Positions 5,063 to 46,305 of a stretch of 47,069 nucleotides of DNA are shown here, piece after piece. Positions within the stretch are counted from its first letter, which is position 1, and every line of letters begins with the position of its first letter. Location of the stretch: the NCBI GenBank assembly GCA_021296535.1, contig JAGWAG010000013.1, positions 79,248 to 126,316 of the forward strand. The letters run 5' to 3'. The notes under the pieces were generated by a model. It made no database searches. It saw only the letters and a list, made by a program, of their open reading frames with translations, and was not told the DNA's origin. This DNA comes from Acidobacteriota bacterium (lineage in GTDB: Bacteria > Acidobacteriota > Thermoanaerobaculia > Multivoradales > Multivoraceae). Both the position numbers and the translations under genes were made by a program.

Positions 5063-8000
5063 ATGAACCTCCCCCGTCTCTCCGCCAACCGTCCGGTCGG
5101 CGTCGGCATGCTCTACGTGTGCGTCGCCGTGCTCGGCCTCGTCGCCGTCCGCCAGCTTGCCGTGGACCTGATGCCCGAAGTCGACATGCCACGGATCTCC
5201 ATCTCCACGACCTACGAAGGAGTGGCGCCCGAGGAGATGGAAACCCTGATCACGCGGCCGATCGAGCAGGCCCTCTCCACCGTGACCGGTCTCGACAAGT
5301 TGACTTCCATGTCCGCGGAGGGCATGAGCAGCATTCAGGCCCAGTTCGACTGGGGCGTCGACCTGAACGAGGTCGTCAACGACATCCGCGAGCAACTCGA
5401 CTTCGTGCGCGGAATGCTGCCGGAAGACGCCTCGGAACCGACCCTGTTCAAGTTCAACCTTTCGGACATGCCGGTCGTCTTTCTGGGCCTTGCCGGCGAA
5501 GGCGACGCACGCCAGGTCCGCCACCTGGCCGAACAGACGATCAGCCGGCGACTGGAACGCCTTCAGGGCGTCGCCTCAGTAGAGGTCCAGGGCGGTCGCG
5601 TGCGGGAGATTCAGGTTCAGCTCGCCGCCGATCGGATGGCCGCCCTCGGCATAACGCCGAGCGAGGTCACCAACGCCCTGTCACGGGAAAACCGCAACGT
5701 CTCCGCCGGCGACATGCTGGAAACCGGCCGCGAGGTCCTGATCCGCGCGATCGGAGAGTTCGAGCGCAAGGTGGACATCGAGAACACGATCGTCGCCATC
5801 CGCGACGGACGGCCCATCCTGGTGCGGGATGTCGGACGGGTCGACGACGGCATCCGCGAACTGACCAACGAGCTGTGGATCAACGGCGACGAAGGCATGC
5901 GGATGTACGTGATGAAGCAGTCCGGCACGAACACCGTCGAGGTCGTGGACCGGTTGAAGCGCGAGATCGACGCGATCAACCGCGAGTACGCCGGCCGCGC
6001 CGAGATCTCGGTCCTCATGGACGGCGCCGAGTTCATCCGGCAAGCCGTGAACAACGTCCAGATGGGGGCGATGTTCGGCGCCGTGCTGGCGGTGCTCGTC
6101 CTGATGTTCTTCCTCCGCGACCTGAGAGCGACGCTGATCGTGGGCGCCGCCATCCCGATCTCCGTGCTGGCAACGCTCGCCCTGATGTACTTCAACGGCT
6201 TCACCCTGAACGTGATCTCCCTGGCCGGCATCGCGCTCGGGGTCGGCATGCTGGTCGACGGCTCGATCGTCGTGCTCGAGAGCATCTACCGCCGGCTTCA
6301 CGAGGGTGAACGCCCCACCGCCGCCGCAATCGCCGGCAGCAACGAGGTGGCGATGGCGATCGCCGCCGGCACGCTGACCACCGTGGCCGTCTTCCTGCCG
6401 GTTGTCTTCATCTCCGGCTTCGCCGGCATCTTCTTCAACCAGTTGGCGATCACCGTCAGCTTCGCCCTGCTGTGCGCGCTGTTCGTCGCCCTCACGCTGA
6501 TTCCGGCCGCCGCCGCCCGCTGGTTGCGGCAGGTCCCGAAGAACCGCCAGGTCGACGACGAGTGCGTCGCCGAGCTCGGCCCGGTCGACATGGCCTACGG
6601 CCGCCTGATCGAGCGGGCGCTTGCACGGCCCGGCCTGGTGATGGCCACGGCTGTCGTGCTGCTGTTCGGCTCTTTCGCCCTGGTGCCCGTCATCGGTCTC
6701 GAGTTGATGCCCGAGAGCGACGAGGGCCGGCTCAACATGCAGGTCGAGATGCCCGTGGGCGCTCCACTCGACACGACCACAAGCACGATGAAGGAGATCG
6801 AGGCCCAGGTCCGCGGTGCTCTCCGCCCCGACGAACTCGACAGCCTGATCACCACCGCCGGTCCCGAGAGCTGGTGGCGCCCCGCCCAGTCCAACCAGGG
6901 CACGATGGAGATCATGCTCACTCCGTTGACCGAGCGCAGCCGCGGCCAGGAGGAGATCCTCGCGTCGATCCGCCACGCGATCGCCGACGTGCCGGCAGCC
7001 CAGATACAGCTCTACGCCTCCTCCAGCAACATGATGATGCGCATGATGCGCGGTGGGGGGGACGCCCGTCTGGTGGTCGAGATCCGCGGCCACGACCTGG
7101 ACCAGGGCGACGAGCTCGCCCAGCGCGTGATCGACGCGATGGCGGCGGTCCCCGGAGTCGTCCACCCCCGGCTCGACCGCGAATCCGGACAGCTCGAACG
7201 AACGCTGCGGGTCGACCGCGCCCGGCTGGCGGAGCTGGGCCTGAATGGCAGCCAGGTTGCCAACGCCGTCGAGCACTACGTCCTCGGGCGGGTAGCGACG
7301 AAGTTCCGCGACCAGGGCGACGAATTCGACATCCGGGTCCAGCTCCAGCCCGAGGACCGGTTGCGCATCGAGCAGTTGCCGCAACTGCCCATCGTCACTC
7401 CGCGCGGCGACATCGTGCCCCTGGGTTCGATCGCCAGCATCCATCCCGGCGAGGGGCCCCTGTCCATCAACCGCGAGAACCAGGAACGCTTCATGCAGGT
7501 CCTCGCCGGCATCGATGGCCGACGGTTCAGCGACACAGCGAGCGACGTCGAGGCTGCCCTGGCGCGGGTCGAGAAGCCCTACGGCTTCTCGATCGACATG
7601 GGCGGCGAGCTGGAAGAGCAGCGCCAGGTCTTCGTGGAGCTCCTGATCGGCGTGCTGCTCGCGGTCTTCCTCGTCTACACCGTGATGGCGGTCCAGTTCG
7701 AGTCCCTGGTCCAGCCACTGGTCATCATGACCGCGGTGCCGTTCTCACTCCTCGGCGTGCTCCTGACCCTGGCGGTCACCGGCACCACCCTGAACATGAA
7801 CTCCTTCCTCGGCCTCGTGGTCCTGGTCGGCATCGTGGTCAACAACGCGATCGTGCTGGTGGACAACGTGAACCGGATGCGCCGTGACGTCGGCTGCACC
7901 CTGCACGAGGCGCTGATCCGCGGCTCCAGGCGGCGCCTGCGGCCGATCCTGATGACGACGCTGACCACCGCCCTCGGCCTGCTGCCGCTGACGCTGGGAA

Positions 8001-37280: not shown

Positions 37281-39173
37281 ATGAGGTCATTCCGAGTCAC
37301 TCTCGGCCTGCTGGGAGCGTCGGCAGCCGCGCTCGGCGCTCAGGCTCCAGACACCTACTCGCCCGCGGCCGCCACAGACCACGCCACCCAGGTCTTCTGG
37401 GGCGACACCCACGTCCACACGAGCTACTCCTCCGGCGACGCGAACATGGTCGGAACGAACGACGCGGATCCGAGCATCGCCTACCGGTTCGCGCGCGGCG
37501 AGGTGGTCGAGGGGCGAAACGGCATGCCGGTCCGCCTGCGCCGTCCGCTCGACTTCCTGGTCATCGCCGATCACGCCGAGAGCCTGGGCGTCAGTTTCAG
37601 CGTCCAGTCCGGGGACCCGGCCCTGCTGGCCGAGGAGATCGGCCGGCAGCTCCGCGAAGCCTGGCTCGAAGTGCGTGAGCGGTTGGGTTCCTACGACGAG
37701 CGACGGGCCTTCAACAGCCAGGTCAGCGCCACCGGCCGCGCCGTGGGCGCCCCCTACCGGCAGACTGTGTGGCAACGGGTCGCCGCCCTGGCTGACCAGT
37801 ACAACGAGCCTGGCCGCTTCACCGCTTTCGCCGGCTACGAGTGGACGTCGATCGGCTCCGACCGGCAGACCTTCGGCAACCTCCACCGGGTCGTCGTCTT
37901 CGGCGACGACTCCTCGAAAACCGGATCGATCGTCCCCTTCAGCGCCTACGACAGCCGGAACCCGGAAGACCTGTGGCGCTTCCTGGCCCGCTACGAGCAG
38001 ACGACCGGCGGCCAGGTGCTGGCGATCCCCCACAACGGCAACGTGAGCAACGGCGAGATGTTCGGGCTCACCAACTTCGAGGACGAACCACTGACCGCCG
38101 CCTACGCCCGCACCCGGCAACGTTGGGAGCCCCTCTACGAGGTGACCCAGATCAAGGGCGACAGTGAGACCCACCCCGTGCTCTCCCCCACCGACGAGTT
38201 CGCGGACTTCGAGACCTGGAGCAGTTGGGCCGGGCGAACCACGGAGCCGGGCGAGCATTCCTGCTGCCGGCAGACGTGGGGCCCCGAGAGCATGGGCGCG
38301 CTCAAGGAAGGCGAGTACGCGCGATCCGGCCTGAAGCGCGGGCTGAAGCTCCGCGCCGACCTGGGCGTCAACCCGTTCAAGTTCGGGCTGATCGGCAGCA
38401 CCGACGCCCACACCTCTCTCGCCACAGCCGACAGCGACAACTTCTGGGGCAAGTACTCGTCGACCTTCCCCTCGCCAACCCGCATGCTGGAGCCCATGGT
38501 CGGCGTCTGGCCCTCGCCGCTCAACTGGGAGACCTCGGCTTCCGGCTACGCGGCGGTGTGGGCCGAGCGGAACACCCGGGCGGCGATCTTCGCCGCGATG
38601 AAGCGGCGAGAGGTCTATGCCACCACCGGGCCGCGGATCGTCGTCCGTTTCTTCGGCGGCTGGGACTTCGAGGATGGCGACGCCGACCGCTCCGACGCCG
38701 CCTCGATCGGCTACTCCCGCGGCGTGCCGATGGGCGGTGATCTTCCGCCCGCGCCGGCCACCGTGTTCCTCGTCGGCGCCCTCAGAGACCCGGACGGCGC
38801 CAACCTCGACCGGATTCAGATCGTCAAGGGCTGGCTCGACGCCGAGGGGGAGCTGCACGAACAGGTCCACGAGGTCGCCCTCTCCGACGGTCGCGAAGTC
38901 GGTCCCGACGGCAAGGCGCCTGCCGTCGGTTCGACCGTCGACGTCGAGGACGCGAGCTGGGAGAACACGATCGGCGCAGTGGAACTGACTGCCATCCCGG
39001 ACTTCGATTCCGCCGAGGCGGCCTTCTACTACGCCCGCGTGATCGAGGTCCCGACGCCGCGCTGGACCGCCTACGATGCGAAGTACTTCGGCATCGAGGA
39101 TCCGCTGGAGGAGATCCCGATGATCACCCGGCAGCGCGCCTACACGTCGCCGATCTGGTACACGCCGGAGTAG
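37281..39173 (+). CDS. Secreted DUF3604 domain-containing protein (PHP-like)
   Basis: VFWGDTHVHTSYSSGDANMVGTNDADPSIAYRFARGEVV; DFLVIADHAESLGV; LIGSTDAHTSL. Confidence 0.92.
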   Translation: MRSFRVTLGLLGASAAALGAQAPDTYSPAAATDHATQVFWGDTHVHTSYSSGDANMVGTNDADPSIAYRFARGEVVEGRNGMPVRLRRPLDFLVIADHAESLGVSFSVQSGDPALLAEEIGRQLREAWLEVRERLGSYDERRAFNSQVSATGRAVGAPYRQTVWQRVAALADQYNEPGRFTAFAGYEWTSIGSDRQTFGNLHRVVVFGDDSSKTGSIVPFSAYDSRNPEDLWRFLARYEQTTGGQVLAIPHNGNVSNGEMFGLTNFEDEPLTAAYARTRQRWEPLYEVTQIKGDSETHPVLSPTDEFADFETWSSWAGRTTEPGEHSCCRQTWGPESMGALKEGEYARSGLKRGLKLRADLGVNPFKFGLIGSTDAHTSLATADSDNFWGKYSSTFPSPTRMLEPMVGVWPSPLNWETSASGYAAVWAERNTRAAIFAAMKRREVYATTGPRIVVRFFGGWDFEDGDADRSDAASIGYSRGVPMGGDLPPAPATVFLVGALRDPDGANLDRIQIVKGWLDAEGELHEQVHEVALSDGREVGPDGKAPAVGSTVDVEDASWENTIGAVELTAIPDFDSAEAAFYYARVIEVPTPRWTAYDAKYFGIEDPLEEIPMITRQRAYTSPIWYTPE

Positions 39174-39225: not shown

Positions 39226-41790
39226 TCACCCGTCGGCGCGACATGGGAAAGCCTCGAGATCGAACCGGGTCTCGAAGGGAGAACCCTCCACGTTCCTGTA
39301 GGTCTCGACGGCGCCGGACTCGCTGTCCGTCACCGTAATCTCGACGCCGACATCGGTCAACCCACCCATCAGCACCCATCGATGCCCGGTCAGATGACAA
39401 CCGTCCAGGACCTTGACGACCAACTCGATGTTGCCGGGGCTGAAGAACCAGAACATTCCCGTGTCCGGCGTGCGGGGAATGGCCGTGCCGACGCCCGCTC
39501 CGTCGCCGGTCTGCCAGTTCGCCCGGACTTCGAAGCGAGAGTTCTGGAGGCAAAGCGACGTTGCGCCGGCGACACACGGGCCGGCGACCGCGACGGCCTG
39601 AGCGGCGGCGCTGGGCCCGGCCAGGCGCGAGAGTTCCGCCGAATCCCGAGGTGCTCCGCCAGGCACGGACCAGTCCTGGCTCTTCGCACCCGATTCCGGA
39701 TCGCAGGTGTCGAACGCCTCGGTGTCCCTGATCGGCTCGAACAGCCGGCCCAGGGGATTCACCCACCTCTCTAGGGCGCCGTTTCGCCGGTCGCGCACCG
39801 TCGTCGTCACCTCGACATCGGTCAAGCCGGCCGCGAAGACCCAGTAGCGGCCGTTGATCGCACAGCCGTCCAGCACCTTGACGACCATCTCGATGTTCGC
39901 CGGCTCGAAGAACCAGAAGTCCCCACTCTCGGCGGTCAGTTTGTAGGCCACGCCGCGGCCGGTCCTGCCGTCGGAGGTACGCCAGGCGACCTGGACGTCG
40001 AAGTGCCCTACGCAGAGAACGTCGTCGTCGCTGCACTCGGCGACCTCCGGTGGCTCGGGGTCCGGGTCGGGGTCCGGGTCGGGCTCCGCGACCTCGCACG
40101 GTGACGGACTCACCGGCGGCCCTGCGTCCGGCGAGAGATACACGACCAGGCCGTCGTGGTCCGCTGCGAACAGCGCGTTCGTCGCATCGTCCTCGTTGTG
40201 TCGCGCGGCGTCCGCATTGCCGCGCGCGTACTGGATGTCCACGACGTGCCGCTCCAGGGACTGGTTCACCAGCGCGTGGTCCAGGACCTGAGCGTTGCCG
40301 CCGAAGAGGAACGAGTACCTCTCGGAGTCCGGCACGCGGTCGACCAGGTTGCACAGATCCCTGGTGACGAGATCGGGACCGGTCATCAGGTTCTCGTCCG
40401 GCATCACTCGCCCCCTGATCTGGCCGACGACGTCGACGTAGCCGTCGGTGAACTGGAACGCGTTGAAGTCGCCCACGACGAGCGCGTTCCGGTCCTGGAG
40501 CGACTCGACGAGCCGGGCCACGGACTGCGCCTGCTCCAGGCGCTTCGTGCGGACCCACTCCCCTCGGGCAGCATCGTCGACATCGATCAGCGAGCGGTTG
40601 TGAACCGCTACGACGGAGAACGTCAGGCCGCCCGTTGTCGCCTCGAGCACGAGCGGCGGCCGATCGTGGAGCCGGTCGACGGTCCCATCCCGGGGATCCA
40701 CGAATGTCTCGCTTCGGCCATGTTCAGTCACCTGGACGACCGCCACGCCGGAGCGCACCAGGAAGCCCACAGCCGAAGAGCTTCCCGGCGCCTCGACATG
40801 GGCGGTGTAGCGCACGTTCGAGTCGTCGCTGCCGATGCGCGCGGCCAGGTTCTGGAGCGCGGTCCGCCCGGAGACCTCCTGGACGGCGACGATGTCGGGC
40901 GCAAGCAGAACCTCCCGGATCAGGCGCGATAACTTGCCCAGCTTGGCCGAGCCGGCGTTCTCCCGCAGGTTCAACAGGTTCTGCGACGCCACCGTGATCT
41001 CGCGTGGCGCCTTCGCGCGGACCGCGCGCGGCAACGCCTCGGCAGCAGATCGCGCCGTCAACTCGGTCGGCCATATCTCGTAGCCGCCGAACTCGTAGCC
41101 GAGCACGCCGGTCGCGGCGAACGTCGTGCCCGGAACCCAGGAGGCGTTCGGCAGGCCGAGCTTGTCCGGGTCGAGTTCGAACACCTCGGGATTCCCGTCC
41201 CAGACCGGCAGACCCGGTCGGCCCGGATACTCGATGCCGGGCTCGCGAAAGCCACGGGCAGAGGTCGCCGTGACGTACATCTCGGCCACCGGGTCCGAAC
41301 TGAAGTACTGACTGCCGCTGGACACCATCCCGGTCGCGACCCGGATGCGCATGCCCTCGTAGCACTCGTACTCCCTCCGGCAACTCGGACGCGCGGGGTC
41401 CGGGGACGGTCGAGAGCCGTTGAGCTCCACCGGATCGGGCAACGGCTGGTTGCTGGCGTCGATGCTGACCGAACCTCCGGACACCGTTGCGTCGACCCGC
41501 GTGAAGCCGAAGAACTCTTCGACCTCACCGGTGACGTCAACCTGGTCGCCGACGTTGATCTGGGGCGTCCCCCTGTGGAGGACGAAGACGCCGTCCGAAG
41601 TATCGGCGTCGTTGTCAGTGCGGGCGGACGGGGTCTGAATGAAGAAACCGCCGGCTCCCACCGCGGTGACGACGTTGTCGTTCGTCGTCACCGTCACGCC
41701 CACATGGGAGCTGGACAGCCCCCTCCCCTGGATCTCGTAGATTTCGCGGACCGCGACCTGCCCGAACCCATCTGCCGGGCAGGTCAACAC
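39226..41790 (-). CDS. Secreted ExeM/NucH-like endonuclease/exonuclease/phosphatase-family nuclease with two C-terminal repeat domains (true start unclear)
   Basis: REIYEIQGRGLSSSHVGVTVTTNDNVVTAVGAGGFFIQTP; REITVASQNLLNL; DIVAVQEV; ALVVGDFNAFQF; ADHDGLVVYL; two C-terminal copies of (L)C(V/L)...W...DTG.FWFF.P.NIE.VVKVLDGC. Confidence 0.85.
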   Translation of the reverse strand: MLTCPADGFGQVAVREIYEIQGRGLSSSHVGVTVTTNDNVVTAVGAGGFFIQTPSARTDNDADTSDGVFVLHRGTPQINVGDQVDVTGEVEEFFGFTRVDATVSGGSVSIDASNQPLPDPVELNGSRPSPDPARPSCRREYECYEGMRIRVATGMVSSGSQYFSSDPVAEMYVTATSARGFREPGIEYPGRPGLPVWDGNPEVFELDPDKLGLPNASWVPGTTFAATGVLGYEFGGYEIWPTELTARSAAEALPRAVRAKAPREITVASQNLLNLRENAGSAKLGKLSRLIREVLLAPDIVAVQEVSGRTALQNLAARIGSDDSNVRYTAHVEAPGSSSAVGFLVRSGVAVVQVTEHGRSETFVDPRDGTVDRLHDRPPLVLEATTGGLTFSVVAVHNRSLIDVDDAARGEWVRTKRLEQAQSVARLVESLQDRNALVVGDFNAFQFTDGYVDVVGQIRGRVMPDENLMTGPDLVTRDLCNLVDRVPDSERYSFLFGGNAQVLDHALVNQSLERHVVDIQYARGNADAARHNEDDATNALFAADHDGLVVYLSPDAGPPVSPSPCEVAEPDPDPDPDPEPPEVAECSDDDVLCVGHFDVQVAWRTSDGRTGRGVAYKLTAESGDFWFFEPANIEMVVKVLDGCAINGRYWVFAAGLTDVEVTTTVRDRRNGALERWVNPLGRLFEPIRDTEAFDTCDPESGAKSQDWSVPGGAPRDSAELSRLAGPSAAAQAVAVAGPCVAGATSLCLQNSRFEVRANWQTGDGAGVGTAIPRTPDTGMFWFFSPGNIELVVKVLDGCHLTGHRWVLMGGLTDVGVEITVTDSESGAVETYRNVEGSPFETRFDLEAFPCRADG

Positions 41791-41914
41791 GCCCGCGAAG
41801 CCGACTATCGCGTATGGCGCCAGGCGTCCGAAAGCTGCAATCCCCCTCTTACGTTCTGCTTCGTCGTGCCGATGGCCTCAATCCTCCAGTTTCTCGAGAC
41901 CCCAGCCTGAGGAC

Positions 41915-44900
41915 TCACCGCCCCGAATCGCAGGCGAACGCGGTGACGTCGAACATCGCCGGAAACGGCATCCCCTCGAGATTCCGGTACATCTTCGCAC
42001 GGCCCGACGCGCTGTCGGTCACGGTGACCTCCACGCCAACGTCGGTTAAGCCGCTCATGAGCACCCAGCGGTAGCCGTTCTCTCGACAGCCGTCGAGCAC
42101 CTTGACCACAAGCTCGACATTGTCCGGGCTGAAGAACCAGAACATCCCGGTGTCCGCGGTGCGCGGAATGGCTGTGGCGACGCCGTTTCGATCACCGGCT
42201 TGCCAGTCGGCCCGGGCCTCAAAGCGGGAGCCTCGCAGGCAAAGCGCCGAGTCGCCGTCGGCGCAGGCACTGCCAGCCGACTCGATCGGGTCAGCACTAC
42301 TCAGGTTGGCCGCGTACAGCTCGTCGGTCAAGCCTCTGGGGGCGCCACTGAGCACGATCCGGCTCTGGCTGTTCACGCTCGAGCCGTTGCCGCAATTGGC
42401 GAACGCCGAGGCATCGGTGATCGGCCTGAAGCGCGTGCCGAGAGGGTTCGTCCAACTCTTCTCGACACCGTTGCGAAGGTCGCGCACCGTCAAGGTCACG
42501 GCGACATCCGTCAATCCGGCGGCGTAGACCCAGTAGCGGTCGTTGATCGCGCAGCCGTCCAACACCTTGACGACGAGTTCGATGTTCGTCGGGTGGAAGA
42601 ACCAGAAATCCCCGGCATCGGCCGTGAGTCGCTCGGCGAATCCCCGGCCCATCCGGCCCTTGCCGTCGTCCCATTCGACCTCCACCTGGAAGGCCCCCAC
42701 GCAAAGAGCATCGTCTTCGCCGCATCGGGCCGCACCCGCGGTCCAGGTCGTGGCCGTGGCCTCGGGGGTACGTTTCGAACCAAGCTCTCCGTTCAGAGCC
42801 TCCACCGCAAAGCTGTAGGTGATGGTCGGTACCAGCTCGTTCACGATCATTGAAGTCGCGTTCGCCGGTGCCGTTCCGATCATCCGCAGCTTCGAGTCGC
42901 CCGGTCCCTGCAGGAAGACGCCGAATCCCGTCTCTATGTCCGAGTTGTCCCGCCAGCGGAGTTCGACCTCCATCCCGCCGATCGCGGCAGCTTCGAGATG
43001 GGACGGCGCCTCGGGCCGACCCAAGGGCACTGTCATCTCGACCATGCGTGCGTCGGTCCTCGGGTCCGCAGCGTCGCCGATAGCGCCAACGTAGGTGAGC
43101 GAGTTTCGGCTTGCCGCATCAATCCGGACATCGATCGTGAACGACTCCGAATCTCCGACATCGATGTCGTCCAGACTGCACACCGGCAGCCCACCCGGAT
43201 CCTCGCGGCAACCGGATGTCGAAGTCTCGAAAGCGCCTTCCGCCGCCGCCAGAGAACTGGTCACGACGACAGTCGGTGCATCTTCGGGACCTGAGTTGGT
43301 GACGCTGACGGTGTAGCGGACAAGCTCCTCCGAGACGACCAGGCCCTCAGCATCGATACGCAGCTCCCCCTCGGGCCACGTGGTCGCCGTCGACATCGGC
43401 GTCAGCCCCGAGCGGAGCAGCCCGTTTCGCGCCTCGACCGCGAAGTTGTACGTCACGCCTGGCACCAGATCGCCGACGACTGTGGACGTCCTGTTCGCCC
43501 GTACCGACCTCAACAACCGCGGCCTCGGGTCGCCCGGACCTTGCAGGAAGATGTCGAACTGGCTTTCCACGCGTGAGTTGTCCCGCCACCGGACTTCGAC
43601 CTCCGTCGAACTGATCGCGGTCGCTACAAGGTCCGTCGGGGCATTGGGCGGCCCAAGGGGCTGCACAACCCCGACATCGTCGTCCCCGGGCTCCGGATCC
43701 ATCGTTTCACTGCCGACGGAACCGCTGTACCTGAGAGAGGTCTCGCTAGCCCCACCCGTGTCGACATCGATGGTGAAGGAGGCCGAGTCGCCGGCCAGAA
43801 TGTACCCCAGGGAGCAGTCCGGCACGCCATCCGGGTCCTCGTTGCAGCCGGAGGTCGTCGCCACAACCGAAGCGACTCGCCCGCTGAAGGAACTCGTGAC
43901 CACGACGTCGCGAGCAGTGTGGGGGCCCGCGTTCTCGACGCTGACGCTGTAGCGGACTCTGCTGGCTGACACGACCTGGCTCTCCGCGTCGAGGTCGAGG
44001 TCGGCCTGGGGTGGCGCCGGTGGCAGCGGTGCCGGACCCTGGCAGGGCGACGGGTCGACCGGCGGCTTGGCGTCGGACGAGAGGTAGACCACGAAGCCAT
44101 CGTGGTCCGAGGCGCGGAGAACGTTCGTTGCGTCATCCGCGTCGTCGAACGCGGCGTCGGCATTGCCGCGTGCGTACTGGATCTCGACAACGTGGCGCTC
44201 GAGGTTCTGGTTGACCAGCGCGTGGTCGAGCATCTGGGCGCTGCCGTTGAAGAGGAGCGAGTACCTATCGGAAGCCGGCACGCGCTCGGTCAGTACACAG
44301 AGGTCCCTTGTGACCAGATCGGGACCGGAATGGAGGTTTTCACTCGGCGTGACCTTGCCACTGATCTGGCCCACGACATCGGCGTGCGTTGTAGTCGCCC
44401 ACGACGATCACCTTCGAGTCCTGCAGCGACTCGACCAACCGCGCCACCGACTGCGCCTGCTCCAACCGTTTCGTGCGGCGCCACTCCCCGGCGGCAGGAT
44501 CATCGATGTCTCTCAGCGACCGGTTGTGGATGACCACCACCGAGAACGCCAGGCTACCGATCGTCGCGTCGAGCACGACCGGCGGGCGGTCGTTCAGCGG
44601 ATCGACGGTGCCGTCTCTCGGGTCGATGAAGGTCTCGCTCCTGCCGTGCTCCGTTACCGAGTTGATCGTCACGCCCGAGCGGACCAGAAAGCCCACCGCC
44701 TGGCTCGTGCCGGGCGCTTCGACGCGAGCCGTGTAGCTGACGTTCGAGTCGTCGGTCGCGATCCGCGTCGCCAGATTCTGAAGCGCGGCCAGGCCGAGGG
44801 CCTCCTGCACGCCGACGATGTCGGGCGAGCCGAGGACCTCACGGATGTAGCGCGAGAGCTTTCCCAACTTGGTTGCATCAGCGCTCGCCCCGAGGTTCAG

Positions 44901-46305
44901 CAGGTTCAACGATGCGACCGTGATCTCGCCCGACTCCTTGGCCCGTACCGCTCGCGGGAGCGTTGGACCTCGGCCAGAGTTCGTTACCGAAGAACTCCCA
45001 GGCAAGCACGCCCGTCGCGCTGAACGTGGTCCCCGGATCCCACGAAACATTCGTCAAACCCAACTTGTCCGGGTCAAGTCTGAACACTTCGGGGTTCCCA
45101 TCCCACACGGGCAACCCCGGCAGACCAGGGTACTCGATGCCCGGCTCGCGGAAAGGCCGCGAACTACTCGCGGTGACGTACATCTCACCGACAGGTTCAG
45201 TATCGTCACGATCGCGCTGACTGCCGGAAAATACGGTGCCGCTCGCGACCCGGACCCGCATGCCCTCGTAGCACTCGAGTTCAAACCTCGAGGTGCAGCT
45301 CAGCGAGCGGGGATTCGGCGACGGCAGCGATGCGTTGAGCTCAACCGGCGCGGGCAGCGGCTGGTTACTCGCATCCACGGTCACCGAACCGCCCGCGACC
45401 GTGGCGTCTATCCGCGAAAAGAACCAGGTCCTACGCTGATCGCTTGCTCCACTGCCGTCCAGCACCGTACCGACCACATCCACCTGGTCGCCGACCGCAA
45501 CCGTCGGCGAGCCGGAATGGACAACGAAGATGCCATCCGAGGTATTCACGTTGTCGTCGCTGCGACTGCTCGGCGTCTGTATGAAGAAGCCGCCCCCGCC
45601 GACCGCCGTGACGATGTTGTCGTTCGTGGTTGCCGTCGCGCCTATGTGCGGACTGTCCAGGCCGCTGCCCTGGATGTCGAAAATCTCTCCGGTAACCGGG
45701 TCCGGCGGAGGCTCCGGCATGGGGCAGTCGTTGGCTGCTCCGGGCGTACCCTTGTCCTTGGGACTTCCGGTACCAAACTCAGTAGTCGATAGGCACCAGT
45801 TCGCCGAGGCGTTGTTGTCGACAGTAGCGAGATCCCCCTCGGCCCCGGCGAGCGCGATCGAAGCGCCGACGGCGACGGGGAACGGATTCTCGTCGTACTC
45901 GACCGTGTCCACCACCGTCATGCCGTTCTTCAACACGATGGAGTCTTGAGAATTGGAGAGGGCCCAACTGCCGTACTCGTAGACCGCGGTTACCCCACCG
46001 TTCATCGTGGAGTCGTCGTCTCTAGCAAGCACGGCATAGGTATTGCCTCCGATGCTCAATGGGCCGCCATTGTTGATGGTGTGACTCGGGCTACCGTCGG
46101 CCTCTTCGATCGTCCAACCATTGATGTCCACGGCAATGCCGCTGGTGTTGTAGATCTCGAACCACTCACCCGCCGTGTCGTTGACGGCACTCGGGTCGTA
46201 CATGATCTCCGTGATCACGATCTGCCCGAAACCTCCGGCCGTCCCTCCAAACACCAACACGCACCCCACCCCAACACGCGACGCAACGCGTCCAGTCCAG
46301 CCCAT
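41915..46305 (-). pseudogene. Lamin-tail-domain + ExeM/NucH-like nuclease + (DUF11-Fn3)x2 + two C-terminal repeat domains, interrupted by two frame changes
   Basis: QIVITEIMYDPSAVNDTAGEWFEIYNTSGIAVDINGWTIEEADG (LTD); nuclease motifs in ORF 44340..45050; remainder in ORF 41915..44374. Co-linear with the neighbouring paralogue through the nuclease part. Confidence 0.8.

Follow-up and report, generated by a model that had tools for sequence, protein, structure and literature searches.

T9SS CTDs of Bacteroidota (PF18962, Por_Secre_tail) serve in the surface targeting of exported proteins (PMC4804311), and GlyGly-CTERM, PEP-CTERM and MYXO-CTERM tags consist of a short motif, a transmembrane helix and basic residues. 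The Shewanella nuclease ExeM carries a GlyGly-CTERM-type membrane anchor at the end of the part that follows its EEP domain, and deletion of this anchor left the enzyme in the membrane fraction (PMC6085458).

The window, by which we mean the whole 47,069-nt stretch of Acidobacteriota DNA analysed here, contains two adjacent nuclease genes that end in a repeated domain with likenesses to both kinds of module. Like T9SS CTDs, it is a predicted globular beta domain, found C-terminally on unrelated exported proteins, dozens of them in each genome; like GlyGly-CTERM and MYXO-CTERM tags, it is C-terminal, lineage-wide and attached to many exported proteins. The domain is real, concentrated in one lineage and uncatalogued within the libraries searched.

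Four domain copies in two adjacent nuclease genes

The unit of ~105 aa occurs four times in the window, always on the minus strand, with two copies in each of two ExeM/NucH-type genes. In gene 1, the first copy (n1-R1, LCVGHF...FDTC) lies at 39703–40017 and the second (n1-R2, LCLQNS...FPC) at 39241–39555, with the stop 4 aa further on; gene 2 carries n2-R1 (LCVGAF...FANC) at 42392–42706 and n2-R2 (LCLRGS...FAC) at 41930–42244, again with the stop 4 aa further on. A profile made from these same four copies matches them by construction, at E = 5.4e-56, 1.1e-52, 1.1e-55 and 1.1e-52, respectively. Their pairwise identity is 45–71%, and the copies align with a score of 240, where none of 2000 shuffles exceeded 11. 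Across the two genes, first copies are 67% and second copies 71% identical, above the 48–51% found within one gene, and the tandem pair is therefore older than the gene duplication. Between the two copies of gene 1 lies a linker of 49 aa (39556–39702, minus strand), the middle of which is predicted to be disordered (residues 125–152 of the tandem model, pLDDT <50).

Gene 1 (39226–41790, minus strand) is a single open frame that encodes an OB/YhcR-like region, an EEP nuclease domain (PF03372, E = 5.6e-9), a D/P/E-rich linker and the domain pair. It matches NF033681 partially (E = 1.9e-36), with 126 bits against a curated cut-off of 300 bits. The stop-to-stop frame (39229–41877) includes a signal-peptide-like stretch without an ATG, GTG or TTG ahead of it. 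A DUF3604 protein encoded at 37287–39173 (E = 4e-214) is convergent with this gene.

Gene 2 (41915–46305, minus strand) combines, by its Pfam matches, an LTD, an OB region, an EEP domain, two DUF11-fn3 units and the domain pair. It is distributed over three frames (44878–46305, 44340–45050 and 41915–44374) by two frameshifts, near 44.96–44.99 kb and 44.38–44.40 kb, and its relative at locus L091 is one intact frame of 1299 aa. The frameshifts may be errors of a draft metagenome assembly or a real lesion. PF03372 scores above cut-off in both genes and PF00932 in gene 2 only; the matches of gene 2 to NF033681 are partial, scored in pieces since the gene is split over frames. Both host proteins thus share the OB and EEP layout of ExeM/NucH (NF033681), with the LTD present in gene 2, but they score below the family cut-off and have the domain pair as their C-terminus instead.

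A sequence-only reading of this DNA had described four copies of the unit and placed them correctly to within about 15 nt. It had also assigned two terminal copies to each nuclease, which holds for gene 1, in one frame, but has to be qualified for gene 2, split as it is over three.

Catalogue status, cysteines and predicted fold

Profile scans of the host proteins and the four copies against Pfam, NCBIfam and PHROGs returned no family over the unit at E <0.05, and a sequence search of the PDB gave no relative (best E = 0.14). We took the sub-threshold matches as chance: the alpha-lytic protease pro-region behind the E value of 0.14, CON_HrpB (0.23) and DUF5936 (0.087) in Pfam, and a PHROG match at 0.07. 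Nor did we find a description of the domain in the open-access literature, as covered by abstracts and hit lists. By “uncatalogued” we mean without a usable match in Pfam, NCBIfam, PHROGs and, by sequence, the PDB, and in this sense the same term in the sequence-only reading stands: a match to an existing family was sought in the three profile libraries and none was found.

That reading had also seen likely disulfides in the conserved cysteine pairs. In an alignment of 84 copies (one from the window and 83 from other records), whose rows were picked to span the whole domain and so favour Cys4, Cys3 and Cys4 are invariant, and Cys1 and Cys2 co-occur, being both present in 70 copies and both absent in 12. 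A broader, pattern-based set of 254 copies contains 210 with the four-cysteine pattern, 12 with the second pair only and 16 apparently without the central Cys. Judged by this covariation, the four cysteines behave as two disulfide pairs, in keeping with the earlier suggestion.

Structure prediction, proposed at the same time as a check, gave a confident AlphaFold2 model of n1-R2 (pLDDT 96.0, pTM 0.89, 84 sequences), all-beta with ten strands and one short helix. Foldseek searches of the PDB and BFVD with this model yielded no match at E ≤ 0.001. Matches to leviviral coat proteins, with probabilities reaching 0.82, and to Cap15 were rejected on TM values of <0.4 and about 0.35, respectively, and antibody matches of the tandem model were rejected as non-matches. 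With a confident model and no relative detected, the domain is a candidate new fold. The model of the tandem pair (pLDDT 87.0, pTM 0.80, residues 125–152 disordered) hints that the two copies pack against each other.

Distribution, placement and host proteins

When genomes were searched with a profile built from the four copies, as the sequence-only reading had recommended, the window's genome yielded 33 copies, and 38 of 41 genomes (its own and relatives) were positive, the three without the domain all belonging to one family (f3). Genomes of the same genus contain 27–80 copies each. The domain was present in 38/71 genomes of a class-wide sample, in which many families have none, and in at least 43 of 396 genomes of a phylum-wide sample, where scoring stopped at 12 per genome and counts are lower bounds. 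Families f3, f13 and f16 have no copies or almost none. A scan of GTDB contigs, with an alignment (A3) narrower than the very diverse alignment A2 as query, confirmed 398 stretches, the best 80 of which gave 79 loci. Named records among these best 80 are all Acidobacteriota except for one “Deltaproteobacteria” genome, P_S1_bin.14; we rejected it as evidence of spread beyond the phylum, given coordinates identical to those of G026, another genome in our set, which belongs to the same GTDB order. Among named matches, the domain is concentrated in Thermoanaerobaculia (Acidobacteriota).

Searches of plasmid and phage collections returned zero matches, and two IMG/VR contigs match the domain. One of these, from the viral collection (3300031251, locus L167), encodes at 5092–6447 a T/P-rich protein in which the domain is followed by a tail resembling a transmembrane helix. 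Going by the record titles of relatives, the window's genus is probably associated with marine sponges. Record titles of other carriers among the GTDB loci name soil, and the domain is frequent there too, which makes specificity for a sponge host unlikely.

The domain lies at the C-terminus in about 75–90% of proteins. It ends ≤19 aa from the protein end in 100 of 111 proteins from the GTDB and IMG/VR loci, 8 of the remaining 11 belonging to one orthologous family, and ≤10 aa from the end in 21 of 23 proteins of the window's genome; the median tail is 2 aa. The complete sister genome G019 (OX638294.1) has 66 copies on 45 proteins, followed by ≤10 aa in 33, by ≤60 aa in 4 and by longer tails in 8. 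A signal-peptide-like start, scored by a crude rule on stop-to-stop frames, whose starts are uncertain, was found for 115/176 domain ORFs versus 133/361 control ORFs.

Hosts include peptidases (M14, S8, M9 and M12-like), other enzymes (nuclease, alkaline phosphatase, beta-lactamase-like, PQQ dehydrogenase, copper amine oxidase, GSDH-like and sulfatase), spondin and LRR proteins, and they often carry fn3, PKD or Calx-beta modules. The domain is internal in an M12-like/LRR family, and PPC and LRR regions come after both copies in one family. It also forms a stand-alone secreted protein of 162 aa, a signal peptide plus the domain alone, conserved in L043 and L059. In L059, the neighbours of the stand-alone gene are an S41 peptidase frame and another frame that matches TM7S3/TM198 weakly. 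A cysteine-less variant with a conserved C-terminal extension of ~50 aa occurs, in pairs, on proteins with fn3-like repeats in L060 and L074.

Eight G019 proteins join the domain to an FGE-sulfatase domain, with the domain upstream of a varying last ~120 bp. Template-like repeats lie at L074:11649–11774 and L073:10509–10634, one directly adjoining a reverse transcriptase gene and the other separated by a few kb from another such gene, and variable genes are located in L072, L073, L075, L076 and L077. Compared with the first template, five variable copies have 14–20 of 18–29 mismatches at template adenines (15–21 with the second). Since adenine-biased mismatches are the mark of a diversity-generating retroelement, these FGE domains appear to be hypermutated by one.

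Internal positions, both in the LRR family and in the FGE/retroelement proteins, speak against an obligatorily terminal tag, and together with the stand-alone form they show that the domain is not a strictly C-terminal tag. The proposal of an anchoring or sorting domain common to the lineage therefore survives in its lineage-wide part and fails as a strict C-terminal sorting tag, given the internal, stand-alone and transmembrane-tailed copies; constant C-terminal placement on secreted proteins, also raised there, proved false.

Possible function and relation to described systems

Because the domain is common to functionally unrelated exported proteins, their shared task should be location rather than catalysis. 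The reading that we prefer, and to which we give an even chance, is that of a non-covalent anchoring or retention module holding exported proteins at the producer's surface; we infer the surface location, the retaining role and the existence of a single common partner. Thermoanaerobaculia would attach a disulfide-stabilised, all-beta domain, once or twice and usually C-terminally, to enzymes and binding proteins that leave the cytoplasm by Sec. Once exported, the enzyme (a DNase in the window) would be kept on the surface or capsule of its producer by the domain, which would bind one surface component common to all hosts, and the preceding linker (acidic and proline-rich in gene 1) would let the catalytic part reach outward.

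Several observations point to anchoring. The domain lies mostly near the stop and signal-peptide-like starts are enriched by our crude rule, copy number is proteome-scale (33 here, 27–80 in the genus), relatives from unlike habitats carry the domain, it also occurs internally, and paired cysteines are expected outside the cytoplasm. In G019, it is fused to retroelement-varied FGE domains, and display is expected for proteins of this kind. Shewanella ExeM carries a membrane anchor at the position occupied here by the domain pair; this comparison is weak, since deletion of that anchor did not release the enzyme. Against anchoring, the stand-alone 162-aa protein has no obvious cargo to hold. Moreover, much of the same pattern would be expected of an export signal or of a common substrate-binding role.

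As an outer-membrane export signal, the domain would be a folded unit read by a secretion machine, like the T9SS CTD, and perhaps cleaved. The extreme C-terminal placement in most hosts, the large set of unrelated cargo and the predicted globular beta structure fit such a signal, as does the secretion inventory: GspD was above cut-off only in a genome without the domain (G025) and in none of the window's genus, where T2SSK gave weak matches only. However, internal and N-terminal placements exist, a signal that is cleaved off would not be expected to occur in tandem or as a stand-alone protein, and Por_Secre_tail (PF18962) matched in 0/41 genomes (one control genome matched, below cut-off). SprA was likewise matched in 0/41 genomes, with control genomes also at 0. 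We consider an export signal unlikely.

Slightly less probable again is a CBM- or adhesin-like module through which enzymes would reach an external polymer or matrix and not the producer's surface. The tandem duplication, the conserved aromatics (FWFF, W) and the fusions to hydrolases and to modules of the fn3, PKD and Calx-beta types are consistent with this role, but the hosts, whose substrates range over DNA, protein, phosphate esters and small molecules, share no substrate, the strong C-terminal bias is unusual among binding modules, and the carriers come from unlike habitats. A passive module, serving stability, folding or oligomerisation but not targeting, suggested by the rigid, disulfide-rich fold and by the hint of packing in the tandem model (pTM 0.80 despite the disordered linker), is improbable, as it leaves both the lineage-wide spread on dozens of unrelated proteins and the terminal bias unexplained.

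A bolder reading, which we regard as possible but doubtful, is that the domain serves as the element recognised by an undescribed Acidobacteriota surface-delivery system, has a fold so far absent from the PDB, and is used for enzymes and retroelement-diversified receptors alike.

Dozens of exported proteins per genome in this mostly uncultured group now end in an unannotated domain, and a profile of it would label much of the group's exported proteome in one step. The domain also directs the search for a recognising machinery or receptor and adds a candidate new fold, while the retroelement-diversified domains fused to it give direct access to the question of what the variable proteins are displayed on.

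Compared with described systems, T9SS CTDs belong to another phylum, Bacteroidota, whereas the named carriers here are acidobacterial. The solved RgpB CTD is Ig-like; our model has no PDB match in Foldseek at the threshold used. T9SS CTDs are always C-terminal, in contrast to the domain described here, which is followed by >60 aa in 8/45 G019 proteins and may be tandem, internal or alone, with paired cysteines. Unlike GlyGly-CTERM, PEP-CTERM and MYXO-CTERM tags, it is a folded unit of 105 aa, usually 0–10 aa before the stop and in nearly all cases without a transmembrane helix. A proteome-wide C-terminal surface module would be of a kind already known from T9SS CTDs and CTERM tags, and the family that may fill this place here is uncatalogued in the libraries searched.
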